A DNA stretch of 44,434 nt. Source: Actinomycetota bacterium. Its GTDB lineage: Bacteria > Actinomycetota > Aquicultoria > UBA3085 > Oleimmundimicrobiaceae. The translations under genes and the position numbers were made by a program. Of the stretch, positions 29,367-44,434 are shown piece by piece. Each line of letters begins with the position of its first letter. Within the stretch, counting starts at the first letter, position 1. Below the pieces are notes generated by a model that was given only the letters and a program-made list of their open reading frames with translations, did not search any database and was not told the DNA's origin. The stretch covers positions 1 to 44,434 of the forward strand of contig JASEGU010000011.1 of assembly GCA_030017835.1 (NCBI GenBank), read 5' to 3'.

Positions 29367-30365
29367 TTAAGAGGGGAGCTCGATGGTGAAGGTGGAACCT
29401 TTCGACGGGGCGCTCTTGACCGATATCTTTCCCTGGTGTATATCGACTATCTTTTTTGCAATCGAGAGCCCAAGGCCGTAGCCATGGACCCCGTCCTTGG
29501 ATCTGGACGGGTCGGTTCGATAGAAGCGATCGAATATCCTCAAAGCCGCCTCCTCGCTCATGCCTATGCCCTCGTCTCTTATGGTTATCTTGACCCTTGG
29601 ACCATCCTTTTCTGCCTTGATGTGGACGGTCTTTCTGCCGCCGCTATATTTGATGGCGTTATCTAGGACTATGATCATAAGTTCGATCAAACTCGCTCGG
29701 TTGCCGCGCACGATAAGAGAGTCGTCGATCTTTGAATCGACCCTGATCCCCTTGTTCTTGGCAGATATTTTCAAATATTCTAGAGCTTCTCTGGTAAGGT
29801 CGCTCAAGATGAGGTTCTCCTTGTCCATTCCCCTAAAAGGAGCTTCGGCCAGTTTCAAAAGGCCCTCGGATAGTTCGGTCAACTTGTCTATCTCCTCAAG
29901 ATTGCTCTGCAATAAGGCTCGAGCCTCTTCACCTCCGAAGGCGGGATCCCTTAAAGCCACCTCGATCTCGGTCTTCATTGCGGCCAGCGGTGAACGGAGT
30001 TCGTGAGAGGCGTCGGCCGAGAAGCGAATCTGAGCTTCGTGGGCCTCCTCGATTGGCCTCAGGGTGGAGAGGGCCAAATAATAACTGCCGATGCCCGCAG
30101 AGAAGAGGATGAATAGATTTGCATAGAGGAGGCTGATGATGAGCCTCATCCTTGTCTCGGCCACGTTATCCTCCATCATCGAGATCATTCTATGATGACC
30201 CATGACCCCGCCCTCAAGTCCTTCGACCACGGCGGCCTGGCAGCGAAAGTTTCTTACGAGCACGCTAGAAGATATGCGGTAGATGCTGAGGCTGAAGAAG
30301 AGACTTATTCCCATCACTATCAGCAAATATATTGCGGTCTGCTTTATTACGGCCCGTTTAAACAT
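29367..30365 (-). CDS. Sensor histidine kinase with short His/Met-rich sensor loop
   Basis: A 332-residue membrane kinase. TM1 about 10-30, extracytoplasmic loop about 31-73, TM2 about 74-98, phospho-acceptor H121 in SADASHELRSPLAAMK, N box DNAIKYSG, G1 DEGIGM, F box FDRFYRTDPSRSKD and G2 GYGLGLSIAKKIV. The small loop contains C42, H57, H58, M60, M63 and M64, a composition that suggests metal (for example copper or silver) or redox sensing; this is inference. The start overlaps the end of the response regulator gene by 8 bases, so the two are co-translated. Confidence 0.93.
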   Translation of the reverse strand: MFKRAVIKQTAIYLLIVMGISLFFSLSIYRISSSVLVRNFRCQAAVVEGLEGGVMGHHRMISMMEDNVAETRMRLIISLLYANLFILFSAGIGSYYLALSTLRPIEEAHEAQIRFSADASHELRSPLAAMKTEIEVALRDPAFGGEEARALLQSNLEEIDKLTELSEGLLKLAEAPFRGMDKENLILSDLTREALEYLKISAKNKGIRVDSKIDDSLIVRGNRASLIELMIIVLDNAIKYSGGRKTVHIKAEKDGPRVKITIRDEGIGMSEEAALRIFDRFYRTDPSRSKDGVHGYGLGLSIAKKIVDIHQGKISVKSAPSKGSTFTIELPS

Positions 30366-31044
30366 CTCTCTTTACCCCCAAGTAATAACCGAAGCCCCGC
30401 TTAGTATGGATGAGGGGTGGGCCGCTGAAAGGGCGGTCAACCTTCTTTCTGAGATAACCGATGTAGACTTCGACGGTGTTCCAGAGGATATCGGCGTCGT
30501 AATCCCAGACGCGTGAGATTATCTCGTCTTTGCTCAGTACTTTCTCTGAGTTTCTCATCATGTATTCCAAAAGGGCAAACTCGGTTGCGGTCAAGTTGAG
30601 CTCGCGTCCATCCCTTTGGGCCGCCCGGTTGCCGCTATCTAAAGTGAGGTTCTGATACTTTAGGATTGGGCCCAGGTTCTCCTTGGGGCGGCGGAGCAGC
30701 GCCCTCATCCTGGCCAAAAGCTCCTCGAAGGCGAACGGTTTGACCAGGTAGTCGTCTGCTCCCAGATTGAGCCCCTCGACCCGGTCGCCTATCTTATCCT
30801 TGGCTGTAAGGAAGATGACCGGCGCATTTATCCCTTTAAGTCGCATCTCTTTAAGTATTTCTGTTCCATCATGGCGGCCGGGGAGCATCCTGTCCAAGAT
30901 GACGAGATCGTATGGCTGGGTTAGGGCAAGGCTGAAACCGTCGTCGCCGCCAAAGGCGAGATCTACGGCGAAGGCCTCCTGCTCCAGGCCCTTCTTCAGG
31001 GCGGTGGCTATCTTCTTTTCATCTTCCACCAGCAGTACTCTCAT
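30358..31044 (-). CDS. OmpR/PhoB-family response regulator
   Basis: 228 residues. Receiver domain 1-120 with acidic pocket ED (7-9), phospho-acceptor D51 (VILDRMLPG), T80 (FLTAKD) and K102 (VKPF). C-terminal winged-helix domain about 130-225 (LNLTATEFALLEYMMRNSEK and NTVEVYIGYLRKKVD). Partner of the kinase downstream. An exact tandem 11-bp direct repeat at 31538-31559 is a natural candidate for its binding site. ATG start with SD gaggatgaagg. Confidence 0.95.
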   Translation of the reverse strand: MRVLLVEDEKKIATALKKGLEQEAFAVDLAFGGDDGFSLALTQPYDLVILDRMLPGRHDGTEILKEMRLKGINAPVIFLTAKDKIGDRVEGLNLGADDYLVKPFAFEELLARMRALLRRPKENLGPILKYQNLTLDSGNRAAQRDGRELNLTATEFALLEYMMRNSEKVLSKDEIISRVWDYDADILWNTVEVYIGYLRKKVDRPFSGPPLIHTKRGFGYYLGVKRDV

Positions 31045-31063
31045 CCTTCATCCTCGAAAGTTT

Positions 31064-31102
31064 TAAGCGGTCGCCCATATATCAAAAATGGGCGACCGCT
31101 TA
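31064..31102 (-). other. 15-bp perfect hairpin ahead of the response regulator gene
   Basis: Arms 31064-31078 and 31088-31102 are exact complements with a 9-base loop. It lies between the end of the small membrane protein gene (31136) and the response regulator start (31044), 20 bases from the latter. Neither side carries a T tract, so it is not a standard terminator; it may stabilise or partly attenuate the message. Confidence 0.65.
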
Positions 31103-31135
31103 AGATTATAGGTCTTTTCAAAAGAAACCGAAAGC

Positions 31136-31492
31136 TTATGGCTTTATTTCAGCCTGTTCAGAGCAGTTGGGACAGACAAAGTCGCCGTCATTGGGAGCAA
31201 CGTTTTGCCTATCGTCATATTTGGGGCAGTAATAGCCCCGCTCGAGCTTGCCCTTAAAGCTCTTTCTGCCCATCATTTCAAATCGCTCGGAATATGGCAG
31301 AGCTCTTCTTTCGAAACCACCGCTAATGCCTCCCCCAAAAACGAGAGCGGCTCCAAAAAGTAGCATGGTAGTCATAAAGATGACGCTCAAAACGGCCAGA
31401 TATTTTGGAACCACTATGGCGCTCACCCTTTTGCCATCATTATCGGTCACCTCGCTTGAGGGGATGCTTGTCTTCTTTTCTTCCTCGTTCAT
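31136..31492 (-). CDS. Small membrane protein with C-terminal cysteine module
   Basis: 118 residues from ATG 31492, chosen because AGGAGGTG lies 7 bases upstream; a longer ATG frame from 31525 would bury that SD. Residues 1-25 are hydrophilic, 28-55 form one transmembrane helix, and the C-terminus carries YYCPKYDD, about 13 residues, then FVCPNCSEQ (C89, C107 and C110). The spacing resembles the heavy-metal-binding (HMBD-type) or zinc-ribbon module of copper proteins, though one expected ligand is not Cys/His. It is transcribed toward the two-component genes and probably heads that operon. Function unknown; metal sensing or storage is inferred. Confidence 0.75.
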   Translation of the reverse strand: MNEEEKKTSIPSSEVTDNDGKRVSAIVVPKYLAVLSVIFMTTMLLFGAALVFGGGISGGFERRALPYSERFEMMGRKSFKGKLERGYYCPKYDDRQNVAPNDGDFVCPNCSEQAEIKP

Positions 31493-31537
31493 CGGGCACA
31501 CCTCCTTCATCGTGTCATTAGGCAAATGATAGCCAAG

Positions 31538-31559
31538 TTTCCTGAGAATTTCCTGAGAA
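31538..31559. promoter_or_regulatory. Tandem 11-bp direct repeat, candidate response-regulator box
   Basis: TTTCCTGAGAA occurs twice, exactly and without a gap (31538-31548 and 31549-31559). One-turn direct repeats are the normal site form for OmpR/PhoB-family dimers. The repeat is also enclosed by a 10-bp inverted pair, GCCAAGTTTC (31532-31541) and GAAACTTGGC (31557-31566). On the minus strand it covers the -35 position of a TATCAT -10 (plus-strand atgata, 31526-31531) for the small membrane protein and two-component operon. Confidence 0.65.
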
Positions 31560-31589
31560 ACTTGGCGACAAAAGCGATATTTGATGGCC

Positions 31590-31631
31590 GCCCAAACTTG
31601 GGCTATATTGATATTTAAGGGTATTACCCTT
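31590..31631. promoter_or_regulatory. Two further palindromes in the divergent control region
   Basis: GCCCAA-AC-TTGGGC (31590-31603) and AAGGGTA-T-TACCCTT (31617-31631) are both perfect. The second lies within the spacer of the predicted promoter of the YHS gene, a placement suited to repression. Confidence 0.5.
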
Positions 31632-31636
31632 TTAAA
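31608..31636 (+). promoter_or_regulatory. Predicted promoter of the YHS-domain gene
   Basis: TTGATA (31608-31613), 17-bp spacer, TTTAAA (31631-31636), 57 bases before the start codon at 31694. Confidence 0.5.
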
Positions 31637-31693
31637 ACCCTGCCGATCAACCGGTTATACAAATTTTGAAGGCTGTTATGGGAGGAAGAGATA

Positions 31694-31981
31694 ATGAAAG
31701 ACAAAGAGAACAAGAAGGACGCCGTCTGCGGCATGGATCTTGAGACGGGGGAGAGTCTTCATCATCAGCACGAGGGGACAGATTATCATTTTTACAGCAA
31801 GGCCTGCTTGGATGAGTTCAAAGCCGATCCCGGCAAATACGTGAGCAAGGAGGCCGAGCTCTCCTATGGGGCGGCCGAAAAGCCGATTATCTACACCTGT
31901 CCCGCAGGTCATGAGGTCGAGGGGGATGAAGGTGGCGATTGTCCGGAATGTGGGAGCGCCATGAACCGCAAGGATAAATAG
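31694..31981 (+). CDS. YHS-domain protein with HMBD-like cysteine module
   Basis: 95 residues. Residues about 8-51 form a YHS metal-binding domain (DAVCGMDLETGE, then YHFYSKACLDEFKADPGKYV; C12 and C38). Residues about 66-90 read YTCPAGHEVEGDEGGDCPEC (C69, H73, C83 and C86), like the heavy-metal-binding domain found before copper ATPases and in CusB proteins. The order YHS then HMBD also occurs at the N-terminus of some copper P-type ATPases, so this could be a stand-alone metallochaperone or the cut-off front of such an ATPase. SD gggaggaag before ATG. Divergent from the Cys-module membrane protein. Confidence 0.82.
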   Translation: MKDKENKKDAVCGMDLETGESLHHQHEGTDYHFYSKACLDEFKADPGKYVSKEAELSYGAAEKPIIYTCPAGHEVEGDEGGDCPECGSAMNRKDK

Positions 31982-32036: not shown

Positions 32037-32080
32037 GAGACCAAAATAAACCCCATTTAACTGGGGTTTATTTTGGTCTC
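32037..32080 (+). terminator. Long hairpin terminator between the YHS gene and uvrC
   Basis: A perfect 19-bp stem (32037-32055 with 32062-32080) and 6-base loop. No long T run follows, but the 3' arm itself contains ttta and tttt. It probably ends the YHS transcript and shields uvrC. Confidence 0.75.
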
Positions 32081-40787: not shown

Positions 40788-42338
40788 TTGGTCGATACAG
40801 ATTGTAATCTGCGCCCAAAGCCCCTTGCCATAATAATCTTGGATGGCTGGGGGGTGTCGGGCGACAAAGAAGGCAATGCCATCTTGGCGGCCGATACGCC
40901 AAACATAGACCTCATGCTTAAGAGATACCCAAGCACCACCATCGGGGCTTCAGGTAAGTCAGTCGGTCTACCAGAAGGACAGATGGGAAACTCCGAGGTC
41001 GGTCACCTCAACATCGGGGCGGGCCGCATAGTTTATCAGGATTTCAGCCGGATAAACACGGCCATTTCCGATTCTTCCCTTTTCAACAACGAAGCCATCA
41101 TTGAAGCGATGGATAGGGTCAAAAGGGCCTCCTCGACCCTTCACTTAATGGGGCTCCTCTCCGATGGCGGGGTCCACAGCCATCAGGATCATCTCTATGC
41201 TCTTCTAAAACTGGCCAAGATGAGAGGCGTCCCCAAGGTCTTGATCCATCTATTCTTGGATGGACGAGATACGCCGCCAAGGAGCGCCGTCAAATATGTT
41301 GCTAAGCTTGAAGAGAAGATGGGTTCCTTGGGCGTGGGCAAAATAGCGAGCCTCGCGGGCCGCTACCATGGGATGGACAGAGACAAGAGATGGGAGAGAG
41401 TAAGCCAAGCTTATGAGGCGATCGCTTACGGTAGAGGAGAGCATTCGCCAGGCGCCGTTTTGGCTGTAGAGAGGTCTTATGAGAAGGGTATAGGCGACGA
41501 ATTTGTAAAACCTACCCTGGTTGCAGAGGAATACGCCGGTCTCAAAGACCAAGATGCGGTCATATTCTTCAATTTTCGCCCCGACCGAGCAAGGGAGATA
41601 ACAAGAGCCATAACCGATCCTAATTTCGATGGTTTTTCAAGGGGAGAATATCCTCCAAAGCCGCACTTTGTCTGCATGACCCAGTATGACGCCGAATTCT
41701 ATCTTCCGGTTGCCTTTCCCATACACATCCCGAAGAATATTTTGGCCGATGTTCTGGCCGAAAATGGGCTTAAACAGCTCAGGATAGCTGAGACCGAAAA
41801 GTATGCCCATGTTACCTTCTTCTTCAACGGCGGGGTCGAGGCTCCCAAAGAGGGGGAAGAGCGCATTCTCATCCCTTCGCCTAAGGTGGCGACCTATGAT
41901 CTAAAGCCTGAAATGAGCGCCCTTGAGGTAGCCGAGACGGCTGTAGCCGAGATAGAGAAGGGTGAACATGATGTGATCATATTGAATTTCGCCAATCCTG
42001 ACATGGTCGGCCATACCGGAGTCTTCGAGGCGGCCAAAAAGGCCATAGAGGTGGTCGACGACTCTTTTGGCCAGGTGGTCGAAGCGGTCAGAAAGGCTGG
42101 TGGCGAAGCGCTGATTTTGGCCGATCACGGCAACGCGGAGAAAATGATGGACTACGAGACCAAAGACCATTTCACCGCCCACACGACCAACCCCGTTCCG
42201 CTTATCTATGTGACCGATCGAAAGGTATCTCTTGCTCCGGGCGGCATCCTGGCCGATATTGCCCCAACTGTCTTGGATATTCTGCTCATCCCCAAATCTG
42301 CCGAGATGACCGGAGAGAGCCTGATTCGAACGGAATAA
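40788..42338 (+). CDS. gpmI: 2,3-bisphosphoglycerate-independent phosphoglycerate mutase
   Basis: Converts 3- to 2-phosphoglycerate with two manganese ions. 516 residues; phospho-serine S69 in GNSEVGHLNIGAG, alkaline-phosphatase-fold metal sites in LDGWGVS, ILADHGNAEKM and DMVGHTG. TTG start with SD aggagg six bases upstream. Its last 308 bases are mirrored at 44127-44434. Confidence 0.96.
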   Translation: MVDTDCNLRPKPLAIIILDGWGVSGDKEGNAILAADTPNIDLMLKRYPSTTIGASGKSVGLPEGQMGNSEVGHLNIGAGRIVYQDFSRINTAISDSSLFNNEAIIEAMDRVKRASSTLHLMGLLSDGGVHSHQDHLYALLKLAKMRGVPKVLIHLFLDGRDTPPRSAVKYVAKLEEKMGSLGVGKIASLAGRYHGMDRDKRWERVSQAYEAIAYGRGEHSPGAVLAVERSYEKGIGDEFVKPTLVAEEYAGLKDQDAVIFFNFRPDRAREITRAITDPNFDGFSRGEYPPKPHFVCMTQYDAEFYLPVAFPIHIPKNILADVLAENGLKQLRIAETEKYAHVTFFFNGGVEAPKEGEERILIPSPKVATYDLKPEMSALEVAETAVAEIEKGEHDVIILNFANPDMVGHTGVFEAAKKAIEVVDDSFGQVVEAVRKAGGEALILADHGNAEKMMDYETKDHFTAHTTNPVPLIYVTDRKVSLAPGGILADIAPTVLDILLIPKSAEMTGESLIRTE

Positions 42339-42427
42339 AGGCAATCATCCGGACACCCAAGCTTCGATGCGAAGCCAAGCCAAATTGGTTATGTAAATCC
42401 GATTAATTTAAATCATCAAAAAAGCTC

Positions 42428-42457
42428 TTGCACTAATCATGTAACTTTTGTTACAAT
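42428..42457 (+). promoter_or_regulatory. Promoter with overlapping palindromic operator
   Basis: TTGCAC (42428-42433), 18-bp spacer, TACAAT (42452-42457). TGTAAC-TTTT-GTTACA (42440-42455), a perfect 6+6 palindrome, overlaps the -10. It is therefore probably a regulated promoter, but the interior of actP begins within a few bases. The 42339-42427 stretch otherwise holds only a small hairpin (GCTTCG-ATG-CGAAGC, 42361-42375) after gpmI. Confidence 0.55.
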
Positions 42458-42461
42458 TTCT

Positions 42462-43201
42462 CTACCCAGGCGATCCGGACCGGCGCCTTTGTGCCCAAGG
42501 ACATTCCCACCGTCGATGGTATTCTGGTCAAGACCGACCAACTCATGCCAACCCTCGGCCTGCGTCTCTTTGGCCAGTTTGGCCTGGGCCACGTCGTGGC
42601 CGGCGCATTTGCCGCCATGTGGTCGACCATCGGTGGACTTCTCATGGCTTCGGCCGCCTCTTGGGGTCATGATCTCTACAAGCAGTACATAAATCCCAAC
42701 GCTTCTGAGTTCATAAGGGTATTCGTTGGAAAATCGGCCGTTGTGGTGATGGCCGTCATCTCTCTGGCCATAGGTCTGGGCATCCCGGCTCTTCGCTTGG
42801 ACAAGGCCTATCCGTCGTTGATAGCCCTCATGGTTACTTGGGCCTTTTCGGTATCGGCCAGCGCTTTCGTTCCCACCCTCATCTTGGGCAGGTGGTGGAG
42901 AAAGACCACCTTCAAGGGAGCCGTTGCCGGAATGCTTACCGGTGGTCTTGGTGCCAAGTTCTTCATTGGGATGAACATCTTAAAAGAGAGCAAGATCGTT
43001 GTCGCTGAGAGCCTATGGGGCAAGATGGGTGCTCTGACATTCCCGGTCATCTACACAATGCCTTTGGGCTTTGCTGCCATAATCATCTTCTCGATGCTTG
43101 ATAAGGAAATTCCAAGCAATATCGAGGAGATTTGGGCAAGGGTTCACGGAACCGCTGCCGAAAGGGCGGAAAGGGCCATCGAGGCCAAGTATGAGCACTA
43201 A
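42462..43201 (+). pseudogene. Acetate/sodium symporter remnant, C-terminal part (actP-like)
   Basis: About 245 codons in one frame without a plausible natural start: TGAFVPKDIPTVDGILVKTD, FGLGHVVAGAFAAMWSTIGG, LLMASAASWGHDLYKQYINP, then four or five further helices and a charged cytoplasmic tail ending AIEAKYEH. This is the second half of an SSS-family cation/acetate symporter (usually about 550 residues). The first half is missing; the frame runs open back toward a promoter at 42428-42457. A GTG at 42491 could start a 236-residue protein but lacks an SD. Mirrored at 43264-44003. Confidence 0.82.
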
Positions 43202-43220
43202 TCACCGCACCCTAAAAAAA

Positions 43221-43251
43221 CCTCCCGCGCGTACGCGCGGGAGGTTTTTTT
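43221..43251 (+). terminator. Terminator at the centre of the mirror image
   Basis: A perfect stem, cctcccgcgcgt (43221-43232) with acgcgcgggagg (43233-43244), then seven T. Preceded by seven A, so it reads the same on both strands. The large inverted repeat is centred exactly here. Confidence 0.85.
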
Positions 43252-43263
43252 AGGGTGCGGTGA

Positions 43264-44003
43264 TTAGTGCTCATACTTGGCCTCGATGGCCCTTTCCGCC
43301 CTTTCGGCAGCGGTTCCGTGAACCCTTGCCCAAATCTCCTCGATATTGCTTGGAATTTCCTTATCAAGCATCGAGAAGATGATTATGGCAGCAAAGCCCA
43401 AAGGCATTGTGTAGATGACCGGGAATGTCAGAGCACCCATCTTGCCCCATAGGCTCTCAGCGACAACGATCTTGCTCTCTTTTAAGATGTTCATCCCAAT
43501 GAAGAACTTGGCACCAAGACCACCGGTAAGCATTCCGGCAACGGCTCCCTTGAAGGTGGTCTTTCTCCACCACCTGCCCAAGATGAGGGTGGGAACGAAA
43601 GCGCTGGCCGATACCGAAAAGGCCCAAGTAACCATGAGGGCTATCAACGACGGATAGGCCTTGTCCAAGCGAAGAGCCGGGATGCCCAGACCTATGGCCA
43701 GAGAGATGACGGCCATCACCACAACGGCCGATTTTCCAACGAATACCCTTATGAACTCAGAAGCGTTGGGATTTATGTACTGCTTGTAGAGATCATGACC
43801 CCAAGAGGCGGCCGAAGCCATGAGAAGTCCACCGATGGTCGACCACATGGCGGCAAATGCGCCGGCCACGACGTGGCCCAGGCCAAACTGGCCAAAGAGA
43901 CGCAGGCCGAGGGTTGGCATGAGTTGGTCGGTCTTGACCAGAATACCATCGACGGTGGGAATGTCCTTGGGCACAAAGGCGCCGGTCCGGATCGCCTGGG
44001 TAG
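43264..44003 (-). pseudogene. Mirror copy of the actP-like remnant
   Basis: Identical in sequence to 42462-43201 on the opposite strand. Probably not a separate gene. Confidence 0.8.
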
Positions 44004-44126
44004 AGAAATTGTAACAAAAGTTACATGATTAGTGCAAGAGCTTTTTTGATGATTTAAATTAATCGGATTTACATAACCAATTTGGCTTGGCTTCGCATCG
44101 AAGCTTGGGTGTCCGGATGATTGCCT

Positions 44127-44434
44127 TTATTCCGTTCGAATCAGGCTCTCTCCGGTCATCTCGGCAGATTTGGGGATGAGCAGAATATCCAAGACAGTTG
44201 GGGCAATATCGGCCAGGATGCCGCCCGGAGCAAGAGATACCTTTCGATCGGTCACATAGATAAGCGGAACGGGGTTGGTCGTGTGGGCGGTGAAATGGTC
44301 TTTGGTCTCGTAGTCCATCATTTTCTCCGCGTTGCCGTGATCGGCCAAAATCAGCGCTTCGCCACCAGCCTTTCTGACCGCTTCGACCACCTGGCCAAAA
44401 GAGTCGTCGACCACCTCTATGGCCTTTTTGGCCG
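44127..44434 (-). pseudogene. Mirror copy of the gpmI 3' end, cut by the window edge
   Basis: Encodes the last about 102 residues of GpmI (including ILADHGNAEKM and ending MTGESLIRTE), identical to 42031-42338. Its 5' part would lie beyond the window. Confidence 0.85.

Follow-up and report, generated by a model that had tools for sequence, protein, structure and literature searches.

A divergent four-gene block around a conserved response-regulator box as a candidate soft-metal or thiol-stress module in an Actinomycetota genome

What does a two-component pair control when the genes beside its predicted operator encode two small proteins with Cys-containing ends? This question is raised by a 44,434-nt stretch of an Actinomycetota contig (the window), in which a sequence-only reading had placed a membrane-anchored protein divergent from a soluble YHS protein. 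The divergent pair of open reading frames was confirmed at 31136-31492 (minus strand) and 31694-31981 (plus strand), 201 nt apart, as were the transmembrane helix of the one product and the domains of the other. The codon-usage score was best in the claimed frame for all four genes of the locus; AGGAGGTG precedes the ATG of the 118-aa gene and GGGAGGA precedes that of the YHS gene. On the minus strand the order of transcription is the 118-aa gene (31492-31136), the response regulator gene (RR, 31044-30358) and the sensor histidine kinase gene (HK, 30365-29367), the last overlapping the RR gene by 8 nt. The features of the locus are given below.

29367..30365, minus strand: sensor histidine kinase with two TM helices and a 40-residue extracytoplasmic loop (HisKA, HATPase_c)
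30358..31044, minus strand: OmpR-family response regulator (Pfam, NCBIfam, orthologue identity)
31063..31103, minus strand: 16-bp perfect hairpin, between the 118-aa stop and the RR start (repeat search, fold z = -5.6)
31136..31492, minus strand: 118-aa protein with one TM helix and the tail C-x17-CPNC, the first gene after the box (ORF, TM, AlphaFold)
31532..31566, no strand: 10-bp inverted repeat GCCAAGTTTC/GAAACTTGGC around the box (repeat search)
31542..31559, minus strand: response-regulator box TTCTCAG-GAAA-TTCTCAG, followed after 10 nt by TATCAT (pattern search, comparison of loci)
31581..31609, plus strand: sigma-70-like promoter TTGATG-17-TATATT of the YHS gene (consensus scan only)
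31694..31981, plus strand: 95-aa soluble protein with YHS and HMBD domains (Pfam)
32037..32080, no strand: 22-bp inverted repeat after the YHS gene, terminator-like, closing the block (repeat search)

About 26 nt separate the neighbouring ccdA and uvrC genes of G001, a member of the same family, and in the window exactly the HK, RR, 118-aa and YHS genes lie between the two. Because the block sits precisely between genes that are neighbours in a family member lacking it, ccdA was ruled out as part of the module. G001 through G004 gave no match to the N-terminal part of the kinase; the block may have been gained here or lost there. A foreign origin was unsupported by composition, the GC content being 0.505 in the block and 0.514 in the window. 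Genes resembling whiA, rapZ and yvcK lie downstream and point to a lineage of Gram-positive type. The contig end at 42031-44434 is a perfect palindrome whose two 1.2-kb arms, with no mismatch, carry one transporter fragment in forward and reverse; it is probably an assembly artefact.

The two-component pair is of ordinary OmpR-family build. The regulator combines a receiver (Response_reg, 90 bits) with a winged-helix domain (Trans_reg_C, 86 bits) and the kinase has HisKA and HATPase_c domains, all above cut-off. This composition is shared with CusRS, CopRS and SilRS. Unlike those systems, both proteins score below the curated heavy-metal subfamily cut-offs (RR 227.3 against 279.2 bits for TIGR01387, HK 142.4 against 292.55 for TIGR01386), and the kinase loop has only 40 residues. 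The regulator is 55-61% identical to its orthologues in the class, and its DNA-recognition region is nearly unchanged. It has one extra residue just past the phosphorylation-site strand, reading LPGRHDG where the orthologues have LP-KLDG. The sensor loop had been described as holding one Cys, two His and three Met. Its richness in these residues and the Cys and His counts were borne out, and the Met count is four, giving 7 of 40 residues (p about 7e-4, with the remainder of the kinase as background). Loops of similar length in G016, G008, G023 and G014 contain 15-17% Met/His(/Cys); many other orthologous kinases have no such enrichment, and the positions of the residues in the loop are unconserved. 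As read from these loops, the enrichment agrees with a soft-metal signal in this subset of kinases without proving it.

The box is the best-supported part of the sequence-only reading. A perfect TTCTCAG-N4-TTCTCAG lies between the divergent genes, as the sequence-only reading had claimed, 49 nt before the ATG of the 118-aa gene and with a -10-like TATCAT behind it. The half-sites are direct repeats with an 11-bp step, and a tandem of this step is the usual layout for OmpR-type regulators. Among related loci that could be tested, 12 of 13 have the box upstream of the RR gene with 11-14 of 14 positions matching, the 13 including G008 and G023 of one genus. These orthologous boxes mostly stand 21-25 nt before the RR start codon and are often followed about 11 nt later by a TATAAT-like element. 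The spacing from box to -10 element in the window is similar. The 1.31-Mb genome has one perfect copy, where simple arithmetic expects about 0.01. When up to two mismatches were allowed, the search returned this site and two poor ones while a reversed control pattern returned 11, so that no site but the perfect one is convincing. Among the papers listed by literature searches for the box, none was relevant.

The 91-nt region directly upstream of RR in the window is without the box (8 of 14). The simplest reading of this arrangement is that the autoregulatory promoter was kept and that the 118-aa gene now stands between it and RR. Since the sole perfect box, with similar spacing to its -10 element, precedes the 118-aa gene, the 118-aa, RR and HK genes probably form one autoregulated operon. 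The YHS gene is probably under the control of the same box; the plus-strand match facing it is weak, at 10 of 14 positions and p 0.05 (p values for the box were computed by shuffling single bases and cannot fall below 0.0005). The wiring of regulator and box is thus considered likely and is well supported by comparison, resting on gene order and on the presence, conservation and uniqueness of the box as read from the DNA. Within the putative operon, the hairpin at 31063-31103 might lower the expression of RR and HK relative to the 118-aa gene and is possibly an attenuator or a processing stem. It has no Rfam match, and its single copy in the genome ruled it out as a dispersed repeat.

The same evidence bears on whether the four genes belong together at all. 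A conserved pair and box could have come to lie beside two unrelated small genes by local accident, with no functional link, and the combination was indeed found in one genome only. The box argues the other way, since it lies between the two small genes in the geometry of an autoregulatory promoter and is the single perfect copy of the genome, as does the position of the four genes as one block between ccdA and uvrC. We consider such an accident very improbable.

Then, what does the pair control elsewhere? The sequence-only reading had asked for a conserved neighbourhood in relatives, and the full set lacks one there, only RR, HK and the box recurring; neither the 118-aa gene nor the YHS gene was found beside the related kinases examined. 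The pairs of G008, G023, G005, G010 and G034 share with the window the regulator, the kinase, the box and the autoregulation geometry. They differ in output, which is a secreted helical protein encoded downstream of the kinase instead of a membrane protein with a Cys tail and a YHS protein. In relatives the box also precedes the gene for the secreted helical protein, whose end is Met/His-rich in G008 and G023. The secreted protein of G014 is Met-rich, no box was found for it, and a large membrane protein that includes an HMBD-like stretch adjoins. The frame concerned (L089:5300-7990, G014:C71) joins this stretch to an epimerase-like portion and a large membrane portion, and it adjoins the orthologous RR/HK pair as well as the secreted protein.

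These outputs raise the alternative of a general envelope-stress pair, of the Cpx/Spy type or similar, in which the usual secreted helical protein has in this lineage been swapped for the 118-aa and YHS proteins and no metal signal is involved. In several relatives the pair does stand next to a secreted helical protein that has a box to itself; G034 and G013 add an ABC transporter and permease set that is MacB-like by appearance. The loops of most relatives' kinases are rich in Pro and Gly rather than in Met and His, and one secreted protein has a weak LTXXQ (Spy/CpxP) match, at E 0.13 and far under the cut-off. The kinases with loops like that of the window are, on the other side, clearly Met/His/Cys-rich, and the divergent output here carries YHS and HMBD domains. 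Taken together, this alternative appears doubtful.

We then turn to the two small proteins themselves. The 118-aa protein has a single TM helix at about residues 30-52. No family of Pfam or NCBIfam reaches its cut-off against it, and no credible homologue was found in 60 relatives or in 397 genomes of the phylum, where two matches at E 0.006-0.009 were dismissed as spurious because their frames contain stops. Six exact peptide patterns, which reach close relatives only, likewise found no relative in a wider contig collection. Single-sequence AlphaFold models of the 118-aa and YHS proteins had mean pLDDT values of 59 and 62 and were confident only in the TM helix. The two Cys tails had been described as similar and as resembling the heavy-metal-binding domain (HMBD, PF19335). 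The similarity of the two was not borne out, as only CP...CPxC is common to them: the first and second Cys are 17 residues apart in the 118-aa tail and 13 in the HMBD module of the YHS protein, and the 118-aa protein had no HMBD match at E<=1. When the tail was shuffled around unchanged CP/C positions, 76% of the shuffles equalled the tail-to-tail alignment score of 28 or better, and unrelated zinc ribbons of the window aligned to the 118-aa tail with higher scores (AccD, 31; prepilin peptidase, 36). The two Cys modules are therefore a shared motif, with homology not demonstrated, and on its sequence the 118-aa tail is best described as a CP..CPxC pattern and nothing more, for which no link to HMBD could be demonstrated.

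The 118-aa protein could instead be a feedback accessory of the kinase, that is, a small membrane partner whose structural zinc knuckle tunes or damps signalling, with no part in metal buffering. Its gene lies between the autoregulatory promoter and RR, its product is a single-TM protein, and its tail is no closer to HMBD than to ordinary structural zinc ribbons. The lack of homologues in the genomes searched, which deprives this proposal of any sign of co-evolution with the kinase, weighs against it, and we regard it as unlikely.

The YHS protein is better recognized. Its YHS domain (PF04945) scores 39.6 bits against a Pfam cut-off of 30.3, and its HMBD scores 27.4 against 23.6 when the protein is searched and 23.5, just below the cut-off, when the whole genome is searched. 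These are the sole YHS and the sole HMBD matches of the genome. Exact peptide patterns, which reach close relatives only, did not find the protein in the wider contig collection. The best full-length match is the N-terminus of a heavy-metal-ATPase-like protein (L108), and the order YHS then HMBD is that of the YHS(-HMBD) extensions of P1B copper ATPases (L108, L104). The protein here differs from such extensions in being free-standing, with 95 aa and no ATPase attached, in having Tyr at the middle Cys position of the YHS domain, and in the HMBD motif CPAGHEV, not CPMHPEV. The ATPase of L104 was set aside as evidence of kinship: its contig (G004:C133) combines the gene of this YHS-HMBD copper ATPase with Mer-like and MerR-like genes, and it may be foreign to G004 given the Mer-like genes aboard and the 5% contamination of that genome. 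A YHS domain is a probable copper-sensor module in a Mycobacterium phlei cyclase, for which an Asp and three Cys were proposed as copper ligands (PMC4626032). Here D9, C12 and C38 are retained and the middle Cys is Tyr34 (FYS, not FCS), leaving the proposed ligand set incomplete. The middle position is Cys in 9 of 10 comparators and Asp in one.

The absence of an export ATPase, noted earlier, is true of the window and does not extend to the genome, in which two ATPases exceed the Cu-ATPase cut-off on contigs away from the block. One, on C46, follows the gene of a CsoR-type repressor and adjoins that of a DsbD/cupredoxin protein; the other, on C3, has a His-rich N-terminus. On the small C46 contig (L071, G000:C46:1-3695) the DsbD-like/cupredoxin fusion is convergent with the CopA-type ATPase and, as called, overlaps its 3' end. 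Neither ATPase has a box within two mismatches.

The closest described layout is copM-copR-copS of Synechocystis, a copper-induced operon controlled by its own two-component system (PMC4335983). As in copMRS of strain PCC 6803, a gene for a small protein comes first, followed by RR and HK; the gene order and the box fit, self-control is presumed here, and a strong hairpin separates the first gene from RR. CopM, however, is a periplasmic, Met/His-rich DUF305 protein, whereas the 118-aa product is a membrane protein that lacks DUF305 and ends in a three-Cys tail. An RND exporter is also under CopRS control, and here, with two mismatches allowed, the box precedes no exporter. By analogy the module may function as a copper-response operon does; it cannot be classified as one, because family searches relate its first gene to no copM and its pair is below the heavy-metal cut-offs.

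The best explanation of the whole, to which we give about even odds, is a module responding to a soft metal of the copper kind or to the accompanying thiol or envelope stress, and it is best read as a known type of module in a lineage-specific form. Beyond the wiring, we infer the signal, the binding of the box, the control of the YHS gene, and the binding and buffering of metal as follows. Through its short Met/His/Cys-rich outer loop the kinase would sense copper or another soft metal, or else the accompanying stress, and phosphorylate the regulator. A regulator dimer would bind the two direct half-sites 11 bp apart and activate the leftward promoter, with the box replacing a -35 element, to give the 118-aa, RR and HK genes as one autoregulated transcript; the rightward YHS-HMBD gene would probably be activated from the same site. 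With a three-Cys knuckle the 118-aa protein may bind metal (or zinc) at the membrane. The YHS-HMBD protein, as a stand-alone counterpart of the N-terminal region that some copper ATPases have, may do so in the cytoplasm.

Of the earlier proposal of a metal-sensing module, the wiring of regulator, kinase and box thus gains support from the orthologous boxes and the discrete block, and the same output genes were not found beside the pair in the relatives searched. The metal reading is plausible. The Tyr in the YHS domain, a tail that is not a recognizable HMBD, loop richness in a subset of kinases only, copper ATPases without the box (one beside its own CsoR-type repressor) and a pair under the heavy-metal cut-offs speak against it. 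More tentative is the possibility of a dedicated metal-response unit with one operator, in which the membrane three-Cys knuckle protein and the YHS-HMBD protein replace the secreted helical output of the class-wide pair.

By comparison alone, in a class of small and mostly fragmented genomes, TTCTCAG-N4-TTCTCAG is defined as the predicted target of this group of regulators class-wide, and the predicted regulon here is one divergent promoter. If the metal reading is true, one sensor pair would keep its box while its outputs are swapped between lineages.
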